NCBI GenBank assembly: GCA_012512325.1 | Contig: JAAZEL010000026.1 | Location: forward strand, 1 to 55,929 | Source of the DNA: Candidatus Fermentithermobacillaceae bacterium | GTDB taxonomy: Bacteria > Bacillota > Sulfobacillia > Fermentithermobacillales > Fermentithermobacillaceae | Reading direction: 5' to 3' | DNA: 55,929 nt | Shown here: one piece after another, positions 2,613 to 49,435 of the stretch | Layout of the letters: each line of letters opens with the position of its first letter | How positions within the stretch are numbered: position 1 is the first letter of the stretch | Made by a program: the position numbers and the translations under genes | Notes under the pieces: model-generated | Told to the model about the DNA's origin: nothing | The model's database searches: none | Seen by the model: the letters and a program-made list of their open reading frames with translations, nothing else

Positions 2613-3857
2613 CTACTGCCGTACCTGTCCTGTGCCCTCTATCACATACTTGTATGTGGTCAGTTCGTTGATGCCCATGGGCCCCCTGGCGTGGAGCTTC
2701 TGGGTGGAGATGCCGATTTCGGCGCCAAACCCGAACTCGCCGCCGTCGGTAAAGCGGGTGCTGGCGTTCACGTATACTGCGGCTGCGTCTACCGCCCGGG
2801 TAAACTTGGCAGCCACATCCGGGTCCGCCGTGATAATCGCTTCCGAATGGGCCGTACCGTATGTTGCGATGTGTTCTATGGCTTCATCCAACCCGGACAC
2901 CACCTTTATGGCGAGCACCAGGTCCAGGTATTCCTCTTGCCAGTCTTCCTCGGTGGCAGGCTCTATGTAAGGGACGATCTCCCGGCTTCGCGGGCAGCCC
3001 CTTATCTCAACGCCCTTGTCAGTCAAATCTTGTGCCAAGCCGGGCAACAGCGCCTCGGCGATGCCTTCATGGACCAGCAAGGTTTCCATGGCGTTGCACA
3101 CCGCGGGATTGCTGAGCTTGGCGTTCATGGCGATGGAGCGGGCCATCTCACGGTCGGCTGCCGCATCCACGTATATGTGGCAATTGCCTGTACCTGTTTC
3201 GATAACAGGGATGCTGGCATTTTCTAGGGTCGCCTTGATTAACCCGGCGCCACCCCGAGGTATCAGGACGTCTATGAGCCCTCTCAATCTCATCATGGTG
3301 AGCGCTTCAGAGCGGTCCGGATTGTCTATGTACTGGATGCACTCAGGGGTGATTCCTGCCTTCTCCAAGCCAGTGCGCAGCTTGGCCACGATGGCAGTAT
3401 TGGTCTTGAGTGCCTCAGTGCCGCCACGGAGAATTACCGCGTTGCCCGACTTAATGCAAAGCCCTGCAGCATCTGCCGTGACGTTGGGCCGCGATTCGTA
3501 AATCACTCCGATCGCGCCGAAGGGCACTCTCACCTTCTTGATGGTCAAACCGTTTGGCCGGCTTATCATCTGAACGATCTTGCCCAGATTATCCTGGAGC
3601 AGGCCTATCTGCCTGAGAGCCTGAGCCATCATGCCGATCTTGGTTTCTGATAGGGCGAGGCGTCGGCGCATGGGCCCAGTAATCCCGGCCTTATCGGCAT
3701 TTTCCAGATCTTCTTGGTTGGCGTCCAGTATGTGGAGGCGTCCTGCCTCAAGTTCATCCGCCATGAACAACAAGCCCTTGGCTCTCTGCTCCGGGCTCAG
3801 GGATGCCAGGACCTTCGATGCTCCTCTGGCGCGCTCTGCCTTCTCAATAACTGTCAT
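2613..3857 (-). CDS. proA: Gamma-glutamyl phosphate reductase
   Basis: ProA (414 residues) reduces gamma-glutamyl phosphate with NADPH to glutamate-5-semialdehyde, the second step of proline synthesis. It is cytoplasmic. Family landmarks include IGVIYESRPNVTADAAGL near residue 110, ILRGG, the catalytic-cysteine segment NPAVCNAMETLLVHE near residue 260, LDLVLAIKVV, and the C-terminal GFGAEIGISTQKLHARGPMG. Length is normal. The ATG at 3857 has GGGAGG 8 bases upstream and overlaps the end of the upstream ProC-ProB fusion gene by 14 nt, so the two are co-translated parts of one operon. The operon sits behind a proline T-box, so transcription should rise when tRNA-Pro is uncharged. Confidence 0.97.
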   Translation of the reverse strand: MTVIEKAERARGASKVLASLSPEQRAKGLLFMADELEAGRLHILDANQEDLENADKAGITGPMRRRLALSETKIGMMAQALRQIGLLQDNLGKIVQMISRPNGLTIKKVRVPFGAIGVIYESRPNVTADAAGLCIKSGNAVILRGGTEALKTNTAIVAKLRTGLEKAGITPECIQYIDNPDRSEALTMMRLRGLIDVLIPRGGAGLIKATLENASIPVIETGTGNCHIYVDAAADREMARSIAMNAKLSNPAVCNAMETLLVHEGIAEALLPGLAQDLTDKGVEIRGCPRSREIVPYIEPATEEDWQEEYLDLVLAIKVVSGLDEAIEHIATYGTAHSEAIITADPDVAAKFTRAVDAAAVYVNASTRFTDGGEFGFGAEIGISTQKLHARGPMGINELTTYKYVIEGTGQVRQ

Positions 3858-5731: not shown

Positions 5732-6000
5732 AAAAAAACCTCCGTCGCTAAGGACGGAGGTTTGTCTCCGTGGTACCACCTTAATTCGGGCTATAAAGCC
5801 CCTCAACAGACGGCCCAGCAGCCGTCTCCCCGTGTAACGGCTGGGTTCCCGATAGGCTCATCGCCTATAGCCTCGTGAGCGGGTTCGAAGAGAGTGGAAG
5901 GTAAACCTTTCAGCCACCGGTTTACTCTCTGTACATCCCTGGCTCTTCTACTATTCTCAGTCATAGGCCGCGTATGTATTGGTTCTATGCAGTGTCTAAT
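5732..6000 (-). promoter_or_regulatory. T-box riboswitch (proline, CCC specifier)
   Basis: On the minus strand the leader contains the T-box sequence AAGGTGGTACCACGGAG (5782-5766), which can pair with the tRNA acceptor end. It is followed by a terminator hairpin ACCTCCGTC/GACGGAGGT and a run of seven T (5763-5732). Upstream is a stem I with CAGAGAG at its 5' side, a GGTGGCTGAAAGG distal element, and a CTCTC return followed by GAACCCGCTC. Read as in other T-boxes, the specifier is CCC (complement of 5881-5883), a proline codon decoded by tRNA-Pro(GGG). Uncharged tRNA-Pro should stabilise the antiterminator and switch on proCB-proA. T-box identity is firm; the exact specifier position is inferred from alignment by eye. 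Confidence 0.92.
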
Positions 6001-44620: not shown

Positions 44621-45844
44621 TTAGCCGTTTGGCGCCTTGCGGTTGAGCCCGCGGGGCCTTGCGTGAGCCCTGCGCGGCCTGCGGGCATAGATGGGTCGTG
44701 GCTGCTTGTAATACACCGCCTTTGCCTGCAGGTCTTGTTCAGCTTGAGCCTCGGTTGCCAAGGATTCCGACTGACTGGGCGGCAATCCGTGTGACAGGCG
44801 GGATGACGGCTGAGGCGGCAGGTGTCCGGGCCCGACATCTATCTCCCCGGAAAAATCGAACCCTGAGACCCTCTTGAACAGTTTCTTGTAGAAAGCAGGC
44901 GGTTTCAGGTTCAGACCCTGTATTGCTTGCTTTACAATCTCCGCGGATTTCTTGAAAGCTGCGAGCTCTTCAGGGGAGAGGGGGAGCTCGATTACGCGCA
45001 AGATGCCTTCCCGGCCTACTACCGCCGGTGTTCCGAGGTATACACCGCTTACGCCGTACTCACCGTCGATATAGCAGGAAACGGAGTAGACGCTGCGAAG
45101 ATCCCTGAGAATTGATTCGGTTATCTTGGCCAGGGCAACCGCTATGGCATAGAAGGTGGCCCCCTTAAGGTTGATAATGTGGTAAGCTGCATCCCGGACT
45201 TCTTCGAACATGCTTTGCAGGTGAGACTCGGACAAGGCCCAGTGCCTCAGAGGGGTTCCTGCAATCGTCGCCCTTGACCATGCCGGGATTTCAGAATCGC
45301 CGTGTTCGCCGATGACCGACGCGTGGATGCTCTGGGGATTGATACCCAGTTCGTCTCCGATCACGTAACGGAGCCTGGCAGTATCGAGCACAGTCCCGGA
45401 TCCTATCACCCGCTCGCGTGGAAGCCCTGAACGTGCCAAAGCCACATATGACATGACGTCTACGGGGTTGGTTACCACGAGCAAGATGGCGTTTGGGGCG
45501 AGCTTACCCACCCTTTCCGCAATGTCACCTACTATTGCCGCATTCTTGGTAATGAGGTCCATCCTTGTTTCCCCTGGCTTCTGTGCCGAACCTGCGGAGA
45601 TCACCACAAGGTCAGAATCTGCCACATCATGCATGCTGCCTGCCCAAATGGTTGTGCGTTCTACCAGTGACATGGCATGGTTCAAGTCCATGGATTCGCC
45701 CAGGGCTTTTTCCTTGTCATCGTTGATCAAGCAGATCTCATCGGCTGTGCCTCTCAACAACAGGGTGTAGGCGTAAGTGCAGCCGACCCGCCCTGTGCCT
45801 ATGACAGACACCTTGGTAGGTTTTTGAAATGGTGCGTTTGGCAA
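44621..45844 (-). CDS. ldh: L-lactate dehydrogenase with C-terminal extension
   Basis: The 407-residue protein is an NAD-dependent LDH: VSVIGTGRVGCTYAYTLLLR, LINDDKEKALGESMDL, SAGSAQKPGETRMDL (the Gln of AQKPGETR favours lactate over malate), VVTNPVDVMSYVA, GSGTVLDTARLR, and the catalytic-histidine motif GEHGDSEIPAWS. The enzyme core ends at about residue 318. About 85 residues follow with no LDH counterpart, rich in Pro, Gln and finally Arg (RPIYARRPRRAHARPRG). TTG start follows GGAGGG by 6 bases. The core is normal, so activity is likely. The tail may be a read-in of local repeat DNA. Confidence 0.92.
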   Translation of the reverse strand: MPNAPFQKPTKVSVIGTGRVGCTYAYTLLLRGTADEICLINDDKEKALGESMDLNHAMSLVERTTIWAGSMHDVADSDLVVISAGSAQKPGETRMDLITKNAAIVGDIAERVGKLAPNAILLVVTNPVDVMSYVALARSGLPRERVIGSGTVLDTARLRYVIGDELGINPQSIHASVIGEHGDSEIPAWSRATIAGTPLRHWALSESHLQSMFEEVRDAAYHIINLKGATFYAIAVALAKITESILRDLRSVYSVSCYIDGEYGVSGVYLGTPAVVGREGILRVIELPLSPEELAAFKKSAEIVKQAIQGLNLKPPAFYKKLFKRVSGFDFSGEIDVGPGHLPPQPSSRLSHGLPPSQSESLATEAQAEQDLQAKAVYYKQPRPIYARRPRRAHARPRGLNRKAPNG

Positions 45845-46103: not shown

Positions 46104-47015
46104 TTACGGTTCCAGGTTCGCATGCCCGGAACTCAGAAGGAGCTCATTGTAGACGTCGCAAGCGGGACGGACAAGGATAATCTGTGGTCCCCGGAAAGGC
46201 ACGGCGTGGGTGGCCGCTAAGAAACCTATGAGCTTCCCGTTTTGGACGACGGGGCTGCCGCTGAACCCTGAGAGGATTTTTGGCTCTTTGCCGGTGAGTT
46301 GAGCTACAATCAGGTGCCCGTTCCGGGACAGCCAGAACCCCTTTATTTCCGCTGGCAAGACGCCTGACCTTGCAGTGTGTAGCAAAGCCTCTTCTCCTGG
46401 CCCGATGTCGTCTGGTTTGCCAATAGGCAATTCGTCCGGGCCGCTCCTGGGCGGCTGGATACCGGACAGTATCACCCCATAATCGCTGTCCAGCAAGACT
46501 TCAGCATCAGTTGCATTGGGGTCAAAAACTGGGCACCAATCAGGTGGTTCAGAGCCGGACTTGCTGAATGGGACGAGCAAGACTTTGACCGTCTCCCCGG
46601 CCTGGGTCTCACACGAGTGAGCAGCAATTACGCATAGGTCGGTATCAGCGACATAAAAGCACACTGTTACGTTGAAGCATCTCTCATCGGTATGCACCCT
46701 TATGTGGTCTCCGCCCAGAAGGACCGATGCGTCGACGTCGGCAAGGGGACTCAGGGGCGTTAAGTGGACTTCTTCGGTAAGGAGTATATGTCCCCCTGTG
46801 GCGTATATGGCCACAAACAGCATTAGAAGCCCGGCGATCACGGTTAAGGAACGCCGTTTGGCCAAGGTGTGGACTGATGATGCGAATATTGCGACGACAA
46901 TAGGCATCAGCTTGCGGCTGAGTTTCAGCGTGAACACCGATACAAGGCAGATCACCATGACTACCACGGCGATCTGTTTTTCGTATCGGGTGAGCCACAG
47001 TTGTAAGCGCGTCAT
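46104..47015 (-). CDS. Membrane-anchored SpoIVB-like (S55) / trypsin-like protease domain protein
   Basis: The 303-residue protein has two or three N-terminal helices (IAVVVMVICLVSVFTL, LMPIVVAIFASSVHTL, LTVIAGLLMLFVAIYA) and an external domain with DLCVIAAHSCE (possible catalytic His) and ILSGFSGSPVVQNGKLIGFL, close to the GMSGSPIIQ serine motif of SpoIVB peptidases. SpoIVB normally has a PDZ domain and signals in sporulation; no PDZ is seen here. ATG at 47015 is preferred because it places the first helix near the N-terminus; a GTG at 47060 is an alternative and both sites are weak. A large repeat array lies just upstream. Confidence 0.7.
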   Translation of the reverse strand: MTRLQLWLTRYEKQIAVVVMVICLVSVFTLKLSRKLMPIVVAIFASSVHTLAKRRSLTVIAGLLMLFVAIYATGGHILLTEEVHLTPLSPLADVDASVLLGGDHIRVHTDERCFNVTVCFYVADTDLCVIAAHSCETQAGETVKVLLVPFSKSGSEPPDWCPVFDPNATDAEVLLDSDYGVILSGIQPPRSGPDELPIGKPDDIGPGEEALLHTARSGVLPAEIKGFWLSRNGHLIVAQLTGKEPKILSGFSGSPVVQNGKLIGFLAATHAVPFRGPQIILVRPACDVYNELLLSSGHANLEP

Positions 47016-47181
47016 GGGATTCTTACCGTTCCACTGGAATGGTTCGCATATGGCTGGCACAAACCTGGTACTCAGTGCTATGCTTTATGGATTCTTCGTA
47101 AGCCCCGGAACTCCTCTTCAACCGCCCACCGCGGTTATCTTGCAAGTGAGCTTGTGTGAAAGACAAAGGCTTTGACGCATC

Positions 47182-47949
47182 TGGTTTCAAGGTGACCGGT
47201 GCCTGGGATAGCCTGGTTCGAGATTAGCCACTTAGCCTGCCCATGTGGTCTAGAATCGACCATTTCCGTTCACACGGGGTTCGCACTGGTTCCGATTTGG
47301 CCGGTTAGGCGCGTGAGTTGGTCAGAGATTTGCCACTTCACTCCGGAGACTGGTTTGGAATTGACCGGTTCAAATTCCTAGAGGCTCAGACCGGTCTCAG
47401 ATTGGCCAATTCAGACCCTGATCTGGCTTGGAGTTGGCCATTTCCAACGCAAACCCGGTTCAGGATTGACCAATACGGCCTTCACCGTAGCGGAAGTGGT
47501 TTGGGATTGTCCAGTCCGGCTCAAGACCTGGTCCGAAATTGACCACTCCCAACCCCATACCTGGTTCAGAATTGACCAATACGGCCTTTACCGCAGCGGA
47601 AGCGGTTTGGGATTGTCCAGTCCGGCTCAAGACCTGGTCCGAGATTGACCACTCCCAACCCTATACCTGGTTCAGAATTGACCAACCTGGCCTTTGACAG
47701 ACTGTAAGTGGTTTGGAATTGTCCAGTTCGGCTCAAGAGATGGTTTCCGGTTGACCACTTCCAGGCTAGATCTGGTTCAGAATTGACCAACCCGGCCCTC
47801 GGCGAACAAGAGCCGGTCAGAAATGTTCCGGTTCGGCTCAAGACCTGGTTCGGAATTGTCCAGTTCCGGCGGAGATCTGGTTAGAACTTGACCGCTTCCT
47901 CGTCCCGCAAACCAAGCCGGTTTCTAGCCGGCACCATTGGCCGCATGCC
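47182..47949. repeat. 105-bp higher-order repeat (41+32+32) of a 17-bp dyad motif
   Basis: Twenty-one to twenty-two units follow one another with lengths 32, 32, 41, 32, 32, 41, 32, 32, 41, 32, 33, 41, 32, 33, 41, 32, 32, 41, 32, 32, 40, 32. Larger periods begin at 47246, 47351, 47456, 47562, 47668, 47773 and 47878. Each unit opens with a 17-bp motif, best form TGGTTCAGAATTGACCA, with inverted ends (TGGT...ACCA). Examples with compensating changes are TGGCTTGGAGTTGGCCA (47424) and CGGTCAGAAATGTTCCG (47814). The units at 47456-47561 and 47562-47667 are nearly identical, so part of the array expanded recently. Open frames on both strands in the array are by-products. Confidence 0.9.
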
Positions 47950-48022: not shown

Positions 48023-49162
48023 TCAGATATTGAGGATTTCCCGGTAGACCTTCTCGGTGGCTCTGGCAACGCTTTCTTCGGAGTGGCGTTCCACAACGAT
48101 TTGGCGTCCGAAGTTGCCCAAAGCTGCGCTCTTTATGGGATCTTGGACGAGTTCATCTATGGATCGGTACAACACATCAGGGGTTGCAGGATAGGGGGGA
48201 TCCAGGGACACAAAATTCCTTTCTTCCAGGATATGAGCGTTGTCAGGTGATACAGGGCCAAATGCACCCTCAGGCCCGAAAATGACTACAGGCTTTGCCA
48301 TTGCCATGGCTTCAAGTGCTGCCCTTGACATCCCGATGAAGATATCCGCGGCAGCAAGCAGCGATGGGATGTCCAGTATAAAGCCGAGACAGCGAGCAAG
48401 CTCCCTGTTATGGAGGGTGTTTATCTCATCCACTCTCGCCTTGACTTGTGGGAAGTTGGTGCCGTCACCGGCTATGAGCAACATTATGTCGGGATATTTC
48501 TTGTAAAGCTCCGATACCGCCTCTGCGGCAATAATCGCTGCGTCTGCCAGCTGTCCGTCCAACCTGGAGACGTACACAATAAGCGGTCGTCTTTGTTCCG
48601 ATACTTCCAGGCCGGATCTTGCACGGTGTTTTTCTTCATCGGCGGGGGGAGAGAAGAGGTTTACGTCTATGCCGTTTGGAATAACGGTGATCCTTTCCGG
48701 ATCAAAACGAAACTCTTTCACTATGTAGTCTTTGATCACATCGCTGACCGCTACGGTCTTGTCCCCCTGACGGCTGAAAAACACCCACGGGAACCCGCCT
48801 TTGAAACACCAATGATATGTAGCCACAAGGGGAATGTTGCGCCGGACAGCGATTTTTTCAGATATCCATATCGGAATGCGGGCGTGGGCGTGGATTAAGT
48901 CTATGTCATAGGTGTCGACGATCTTTGAGATGATCTGGTATGCCTTGGCCATGTGATGCGGCCACCGCGAGTGGAGCGGGGCATACAGATGAGTGATTCC
49001 TGCTTCAGTCAAGTCTTGTACCCGTTCGCCTCCGTGGGAAGCAACGTAAACTTGCCATCCCAATGATTTCAGACCTTTCGAGAGGCTGATCACATGGGTT
49101 TCAGCACCGCCGATACCCAAGCTCATGGGGAGCATGAGAATCGACGCCTTTGACTTGGCCAT
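48023..49162 (-). CDS. Glycosyltransferase family 4 protein
   Basis: The 379-residue enzyme has two Rossmann-like halves. LPMSLGIGGAETHVISLSKG at the N-terminus is the GT4 nucleotide-sugar loop region. DLIHAHARIPIWIS, VIPNGIDVNLFSPP, LIVYVSRLDGQLADAAI, IMLLIAGDGTNFPQ and the donor-binding ADIFIGMSRAALEAMAMAKP (degenerate EX7E) follow. It probably builds a surface glycan or glycolipid. ATG at 49162 has GGCGAG upstream; a GTG four codons earlier is possible. The acceptor and sugar cannot be predicted. Confidence 0.88.
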   Translation of the reverse strand: MAKSKASILMLPMSLGIGGAETHVISLSKGLKSLGWQVYVASHGGERVQDLTEAGITHLYAPLHSRWPHHMAKAYQIISKIVDTYDIDLIHAHARIPIWISEKIAVRRNIPLVATYHWCFKGGFPWVFFSRQGDKTVAVSDVIKDYIVKEFRFDPERITVIPNGIDVNLFSPPADEEKHRARSGLEVSEQRRPLIVYVSRLDGQLADAAIIAAEAVSELYKKYPDIMLLIAGDGTNFPQVKARVDEINTLHNRELARCLGFILDIPSLLAAADIFIGMSRAALEAMAMAKPVVIFGPEGAFGPVSPDNAHILEERNFVSLDPPYPATPDVLYRSIDELVQDPIKSAALGNFGRQIVVERHSEESVARATEKVYREILNI

Positions 49163-49435
49163 CAGGAATATCACTCGCCTTCAAAGTTGCATCATTAACT
49201 AGGCTATCCTGTCTTAAGAAGATGGTCAATACATATCTCAGCATATGGCCTACCGCGGCAGCAGGAACTCACAGGGAACCCCGCGGTAACATGGTACGTC
49301 AGTAAAACCGGACAGGTCGACGAATGATGTTAGTGAGCCCAATGGGAAATACTACCGCTAGACCGTCTTCGGTGTGGACTGTTATTGTGTTGGTTACGTA
49401 GTACCCACCGAACGGGATTACAAGGAGGGAACACC

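Follow-up and report, generated by a model that had tools for sequence, protein, structure and literature searches.

Phased arrays of dyad sites dispersed through Fermentithermobacillaceae genomes and a linked family of winged-helix proteins with a homing-nuclease-like domain

The archaeal proteins TrmBL2 and AspA are winged-helix proteins that, judging by the titles of their entries, coat DNA; we know of no chromosomal family of phased arrays dedicated to either. The F-plasmid sopC locus is made of tandem 43-bp units, each containing a single dyad. Both sopC and 43-bp are named in passages of PMC9178275 and PMC6238139. In PMC8049555, RAYTs are described as genes that are inherited vertically, occur in a single copy and duplicate REPINs; the EDxHD family of homing endonucleases is described in PMC3943268. 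Here, we report on a phased array that shares features with each of these systems.

The window, i.e., the whole stretch of DNA analyzed (55,929 nucleotides), is contig C6 of the 1.66-Mb genome of a Candidatus Fermentithermobacillaceae bacterium (G000). It contains 21 dyad sites of the form YGG-N11-CCR that follow each other in a 32-32-41 bp order. The site consensus is TGGTYTGGAATTGACCA, with weaker flanks on the 5' (A.C) and 3' (STTC) sides. The features of the window are as follows.

5747 to 5973, minus strand: T-box leader (98.5 bits), a separate observation.
44621 to 45844, minus strand: lactate/malate dehydrogenase-type (Ldh-type) gene, conserved left-hand syntenic marker of the array locus.
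46104 to 47060, minus strand: left neighbor, 318 aa, function unassigned, with a weak SpoIVB-like stretch only.
47182 to 47894, plus strand: class-1 phased array, 21 YGGYN7TGDCCR sites in seven three-site units, 32-32-41; orphan, without a partner gene.
Starts of sites 1 to 7: 47182, 47214, 47246, 47287, 47319, 47351, 47392.
Starts of sites 8 to 14: 47424, 47456, 47497, 47529, 47562, 47603, 47635.
Starts of sites 15 to 21: 47668, 47709, 47741, 47773, 47814, 47846, 47878.
47450 to 47767, plus strand: three most similar 106-bp units of the array, 93% and 73% identity to the first.
48023 to 49174, minus strand: right neighbor, family 4/1 glycosyltransferase.

A preliminary description of this DNA had recognized evenly spaced dyad-type sites over 47182-47949 with a strict 105-bp period. 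The 21 sites are real and their 32-32-41 order runs throughout, but two of the 32-bp spacings measure 33 bp, which gives a 106-bp period over part of the array. The range needs trimming on its right side, as the final clear site ends at 47894 and no good site was found in 47895-47949. The 106-bp units at 47450-47767 are the most alike, pointing to a recent amplification of the unit. Since single-unit spacings are not divisible by 3 and the array is not spanned by any ORF, we consider it to be non-coding. No relationship was found between the left neighbor and the partner protein described below. In the related genomes G001 and G003, an array likewise lies between an Ldh-type gene and a glycosyltransferase gene.

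A search for further copies of the motif had been proposed in the preliminary description. A two-site pattern returned 80 strand matches in G000 versus 1 for a reversed control, indicating that window-type arrays do not arise by chance. At least eight arrays are scattered in this genome, those outside the window being located on contigs C4, C18, C34, C51, C60, C78 and C84. Arrays of this type, hereafter class 1, occur in four of the five species of the genus (the window's and three sister species), and a sequence-only model of the class-1 three-site unit found no arrays in the rest of the 154 genomes of the class. Searches for a viral or plasmid source of the array gave no match. In many genomes, matches to the generic GG-N11-CC pattern at 31 bp were no more frequent than those to its control, with the exception of G005 (19 vs 0). 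A repeat of another type was also caught by the array pattern on the reverse strand of a Chthonomonas MAG (L071, 6804-6962), where TGGCCGGAGTTTGGCCG repeats are dense.

Pooling the class-1 arrays of the four species yielded 22 arrays and 308 sites. Spacings of 32 bp (190 occurrences) and of 41 or 42 bp (84 occurrences) dominate. The short-short-long order is kept in 233 of 242 consecutive spacing triples, compared to a mean of 120 and a maximum of 153 after shuffling within arrays. Hence, spacing does not vary freely between relatives, as the preliminary description had anticipated. Furthermore, the site consensus differs between the three positions of the triplet.

Comparison of orthologous arrays revealed that the sites outlast their surroundings. 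The GG/CC cores share 93-97% identity between the window array, L082 and L090, and between L080 and L087, whereas the linkers share 63-65%. In the closer pairs L079/L089 and L086/L088, cores are 91-97% and linkers 86-87% identical, and cores drop to 79% in the most decayed pair (L077/L094, G004). These alignments support the view that the cores and the spacing of the sites are kept under selection while linkers decay. Orthologous arrays also differ by gain or loss of whole 105/106-bp units.

Across 10-17 sites, arrays from unrelated loci align co-linearly as copies of each other. At comparable loci of the complete relative G006 (2.0 of 2.3 Mb covered), the matching gaps are short and empty. 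The gap between MreB and a flagellar gene carries an array in G000 only; in four sister species nothing occupies it, and the insertion shows no obvious duplication of its target site. Downstream of this array (L274, contig C18), G000 has two diverged copies of a ~97-bp repeat (CGATGTATGGTCTAAGTTGCGAAGG...) that is absent from the sister species. Array orientations are mixed on both halves of the chromosome as mapped on G006, with no replication-direction bias seen for the few loci mapped. The flanking genes are unrelated, mostly housekeeping, and found in every relative orientation (convergent, tandem and divergent); therefore, the promoter-type element that had been suggested is unlikely and was rejected. 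A CRISPR array was likewise rejected, given that the only common element of the sites is a degenerate 17-bp core, that linkers at different loci resemble each other, and that no cas gene was found among the flanking genes. Independently, G006 carries a CRISPR array with the repeat GTTTTGAGCCTACCTATGAGGGATGGAAAT (L168, 1033-7246).

Arrays of different sequence were found in the same group of bacteria. At the ArgS locus, class-1 arrays are present in G000, G004 and, inverted, in G001, whereas G003 has a different array. The latter, which defines class 2, consists of sixteen 18-bp sites (TGGTCGATTTTGGTACCA) in a strict 33-33-32 bp order, and class 2 was found at three further G003 loci. A third class (31 bp) is present at three loci of G005 and a fourth (32 bp) in G006. 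Motifs vary by locus, with GTGCAAACC..GTTGGCAC in G015 and G016, and TGGTCGCCAC.GACCA at 32-32-30 in G028. Class 2 averages 32.7 bp (3.1 turns), the least exact fit to whole turns. Helical phasing, as first proposed, agrees well with these data because spacing is fixed across species and classes of unrelated sequence also fall near 3 or 4 turns. A 261-aa ORF adjoining a G005 orphan array is unrelated to the partner family.

The fourth class led to a candidate partner, since the G006 array sits immediately upstream of a 260-aa winged-helix gene. The G001 gene abutting a class-1 array is a homologue of this gene (34% identity, E=2e-40), and its orthologues adjoin class-1 arrays in G003 and on contig C78 of G000, the gene locus being orthologous in these three genomes. 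In G000, this class-1 partner gene (C78, about 4.0-4.8 kb) appears frameshifted near 4.59 kb in the assembly, which may reflect a recent event or an assembly error. The class-1 array having the partner gene is flanked by a NUDIX and HNH (type IV restriction-like) gene at 5669-7135 of L080 (G000 C78). Furthermore, G003 encodes a paralogue with 64% identity located 35 bp from a class-2 array; the class-1 protein of this genome is on contig C52 and the class-2 protein on C40. In G006, a second copy of the gene is interrupted by a frameshift, and no array lies near it. On the side of the class-4 array opposite to the partner gene, G006 has a TOTE-type primase-helicase gene (L219, 11087-13744), a possible link to a conflict system.

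The family profile matches 36 of the 154 genomes of the class and 23 of its 88 genera, with up to 11 copies per genome. To assess linkage, one family member from each of 30 genomes was taken and its surroundings were scanned for self-similarity at lags of 31, 32, 41 or 43 bp or their multiples, with a threshold of z>4; paralogues such as the one on G000 C19 fall outside this sample. Because the chain finder over-extended arrays at low penalty, the arrays used were those that lag analysis or inspection by eye also showed. A phased signal was detected at 18 of the 30 homologue loci, which are members of one family rather than independent samples, and G015 and G016 add clean 42-bp arrays. None of the control stretches gave such a signal (0/29, 0/13, 0/12 and 0/220; 0/274 in all). 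Ten to 12 of the 30 members have no detectable array. When all lags from 20 to 60 were allowed, the strong periods beside the genes were mostly 31, 32, 33 or 42 bp, with one of 53, all close to 3, 4 or 5 helical turns, and two more (21 and 45) resemble coding periodicity. We relied on the restricted lags because the all-lag test gave z values over 5 at 6 of 54 control loci, largely at coding-derived multiples of 3. In G012, directly downstream of a family member (L316, 357-700), we observed six near-perfect 27-bp palindromes (AAAGTGGCTCA-N5-TGAGCCACTTT) every 53 bp, the arms of which do change together (GGCTCA/TGAGCC, GGCCTA/TAGGCC).

Most arrays in the genus have no partner gene alongside. 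Nonetheless, class-1 orphan arrays share motif and spacing with the gene-adjacent arrays of G001 and G003, and the same holds for class 2 in G003. Only gene fragments were found in G004, which has the shortest arrays (median of 5.5 sites vs 15.5-16.5), as would be expected if the protein maintains arrays, although the gene may simply be missing from an assembly that is 80% complete.

Profile searches assigned residues about 20-90 of the partner protein to a MarR/HTH_36-like winged helix. Its structure was predicted with a pLDDT of 92 (AlphaFold, 29-sequence alignment), and the weak PDB fold matches, none of which falls below E=0.001, include MarR, TrmBL2 and AspA. The C-terminal domain matches the phage homing-endonuclease family phrog_9084 in 29 of the 29 aligned members, in which D151, E163, G166, Q168-H169, T173, D189 and K192 are invariant. 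Predicted viral structures were matched at E<1e-6 to 1e-5, some of them named restriction or homing endonuclease. By sequence, no solved (PDB) structure matched this domain, and Pfam gave only a weak DUF2726 signal. The domain thus has the conserved acidic, His and Lys residues of a nuclease, and the residue motif suggests that it is an EDxHD/Vsr-like nuclease, EDxHD proper being a putative assignment. Apart from its winged helix, the family has no name in Pfam or NCBIfam. Pfam, PDB and PHROG profiles revealed a winged helix and a homing endonuclease but no transposase, and an AsnC/Lrp effector domain is absent from the linked protein. As regards plasmid iterons, in which a replication initiator uses the array as its origin, the winged helix of some members scores weakly against HTH_36 and against PHROGs of phage initiators. 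No relatives of P0002 were found in the plasmid collection, and the viral relatives of the C-terminal domain lack arrays but for one borderline case (z=4.1) in 80.

This organization resembles a REPIN-RAYT system in that a resident gene is flanked by its own repeat while gene-less copies of the repeat are dispersed. However, the partner protein combines a winged helix with a homing-nuclease-like domain instead of a Y1 (HUH) tyrosine transposase, which excludes membership in that system, and the repeats are phased arrays of 300-760 bp in about 8 copies, whereas REP hairpins number in the hundreds. The C-terminal domain recalls EDxHD/PD-(D/E)XK (I-Bth0305I type) and DUF2726-type nucleases through its phrog_9084 match and invariant D, E, QH, D and K residues, but is here fused to an N-terminal winged helix and encoded next to a phased array. 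TrmBL2 and AspA, in contrast, have no nuclease domain. No paper describing such a gene-array pairing was found in a limited literature search. The pairing of a DNA-binding homing-nuclease-like protein with its own array in many related bacteria, with binding and function predicted from sequence, appears to be undescribed.

Taking together the observed sites, their spacing, conservation and dispersal, and the statistically specific linkage of gene and array, we think it probable that the window array is a set of binding sites for a winged-helix nuclease-like protein specific to its array class, present in dispersed gene-less copies and phased for filament packing. Each array class would have its own version of this MarR-like protein, C-terminally similar to homing endonucleases, with the gene lying next to a single copy of the array, and the remaining copies, including that of the window, would be orphan arrays at unrelated intergenic sites. 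We infer that a dimer of the linked protein would occupy each 17-18-bp dyad, which a winged-helix N-terminus suits, and that neighboring dimers would cooperate. Whole-turn spacing would align the bound dimers along a single face of the DNA, where they could pack as one nucleoprotein filament; such one-face stacking is supported by the preference of unrelated array sequences for 3 or 4 turns. Arrays would grow and shrink by gain and loss of three-site units, and whole arrays would be copied to new loci, a process in which the nuclease-like domain may assist. If active, this domain might drive array copying or cut foreign DNA; it may otherwise be reduced to a structural role. Several observations go against this model: the arrays of G000 are the best kept though its own class-1 gene looks frameshifted, some family members have no detectable array, and the class-1 site is asymmetric. 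Its right half (TTGACCA) is better conserved than the corresponding left-hand positions, an asymmetry that binding by a simple symmetric dimer leaves unexplained.

Homing endonucleases insert at their targets, and a spacing of about 31-32 bp is known for Lrp-type octamers. Another host protein (Lrp-like, nucleoid or partition) could thus bind the arrays and homing-nuclease-like selfish genes could settle there, using the arrays as insertion target, in keeping with a nuclease motif that is intact in 29 of 29 members. We regard this as unlikely, since different array classes adjoin different paralogues of one family, the family itself bears a winged helix, and most arrays of the genus lack an adjacent gene.

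Partition had also been put forward in the preliminary description, and a centromere-like or chromosome-organizing array of the sopC kind, acting in segregation or nucleoid folding, would account for tandem one-dyad units at whole-turn spacing and for the weak matches in fold between the N-terminal domain and two archaeal proteins, AspA (centromere) and TrmBL2 (chromatin). The arrays differ from sopC and ParB-type centromeres in that they are chromosomal, dispersed in about eight copies per genome over both chromosome halves (on G006) in mixed orientations, restricted to a lineage and linked to an unrelated protein family; no ParA or ParB genes were found among the flanking genes scanned. This makes a partition role quite improbable.

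Mobile elements could leave arrays of transposase-binding sites of the IS21, Tn7 or Mu type, as IS21 ends bear repeated sites. An IS21-type element of G016 (L128) indeed has 23-bp-period repeats near its ends (1145-1290 and 3185-3253) that are probably transposase-binding sites. IS21 ends were rejected given that no IS21 transposase was found in G000 or G001, and transposon ends in general retain very little probability: no transposase was found among the array-flanking genes scanned, arrays have 15-21 sites each, and the MreB insertion lacks an obvious target duplication.

The short TGGT/ACCA arms could also pair in a transcribed repeat RNA, forming hairpins or titrating a protein, and compensating changes at both ends of some units had been reported initially. 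Among the 308 class-1 sites, the pair 1-17 is T-A in 221, T-G in 42, C-A in 36 and C-G in 6, and Watson-Crick pairs amount to 227 where 229 are expected. The arms vary independently, so the compensating changes are a coincidence, and the RNA hairpin, for which no Rfam match was found either, was rejected. Spacing fixed to about 1 bp near whole turns is also not needed by an RNA, and we give this possibility hardly any weight. Independent ends speak against an RNA hairpin but not against a DNA dyad. Finally, a neutral minisatellite grown by slippage would explain the gain and loss of whole 105/106-bp units but is the least credible reading, as orthologous arrays keep cores and fixed spacing while linkers decay and arrays are linked to one gene family, in line with the protein-loaded array first proposed.

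The binding-site reading may extend beyond the window. Tentatively, and with somewhat less than even confidence, we suggest a new kind of system that spreads repeats or organizes the genome, in which host-encoded winged-helix homing-nuclease proteins each own a fast-evolving phased array and seed and maintain gene-less arrays chromosome-wide. It might be a selfish element that has become domesticated, or it might serve in chromatin or defence, with the array holding the nuclease.

With this linkage, an unusual intergenic repeat becomes one side of a protein-DNA pairing that can be tested. Because the 64%-identical paralogues of G003 adjoin arrays with different sites and spacings within one genome, they offer natural experiments on the co-evolution of DNA-binding specificity with the target repeats. 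The spread of phased arrays through compact bacterial genomes, and their persistence there, could be studied in the same way.
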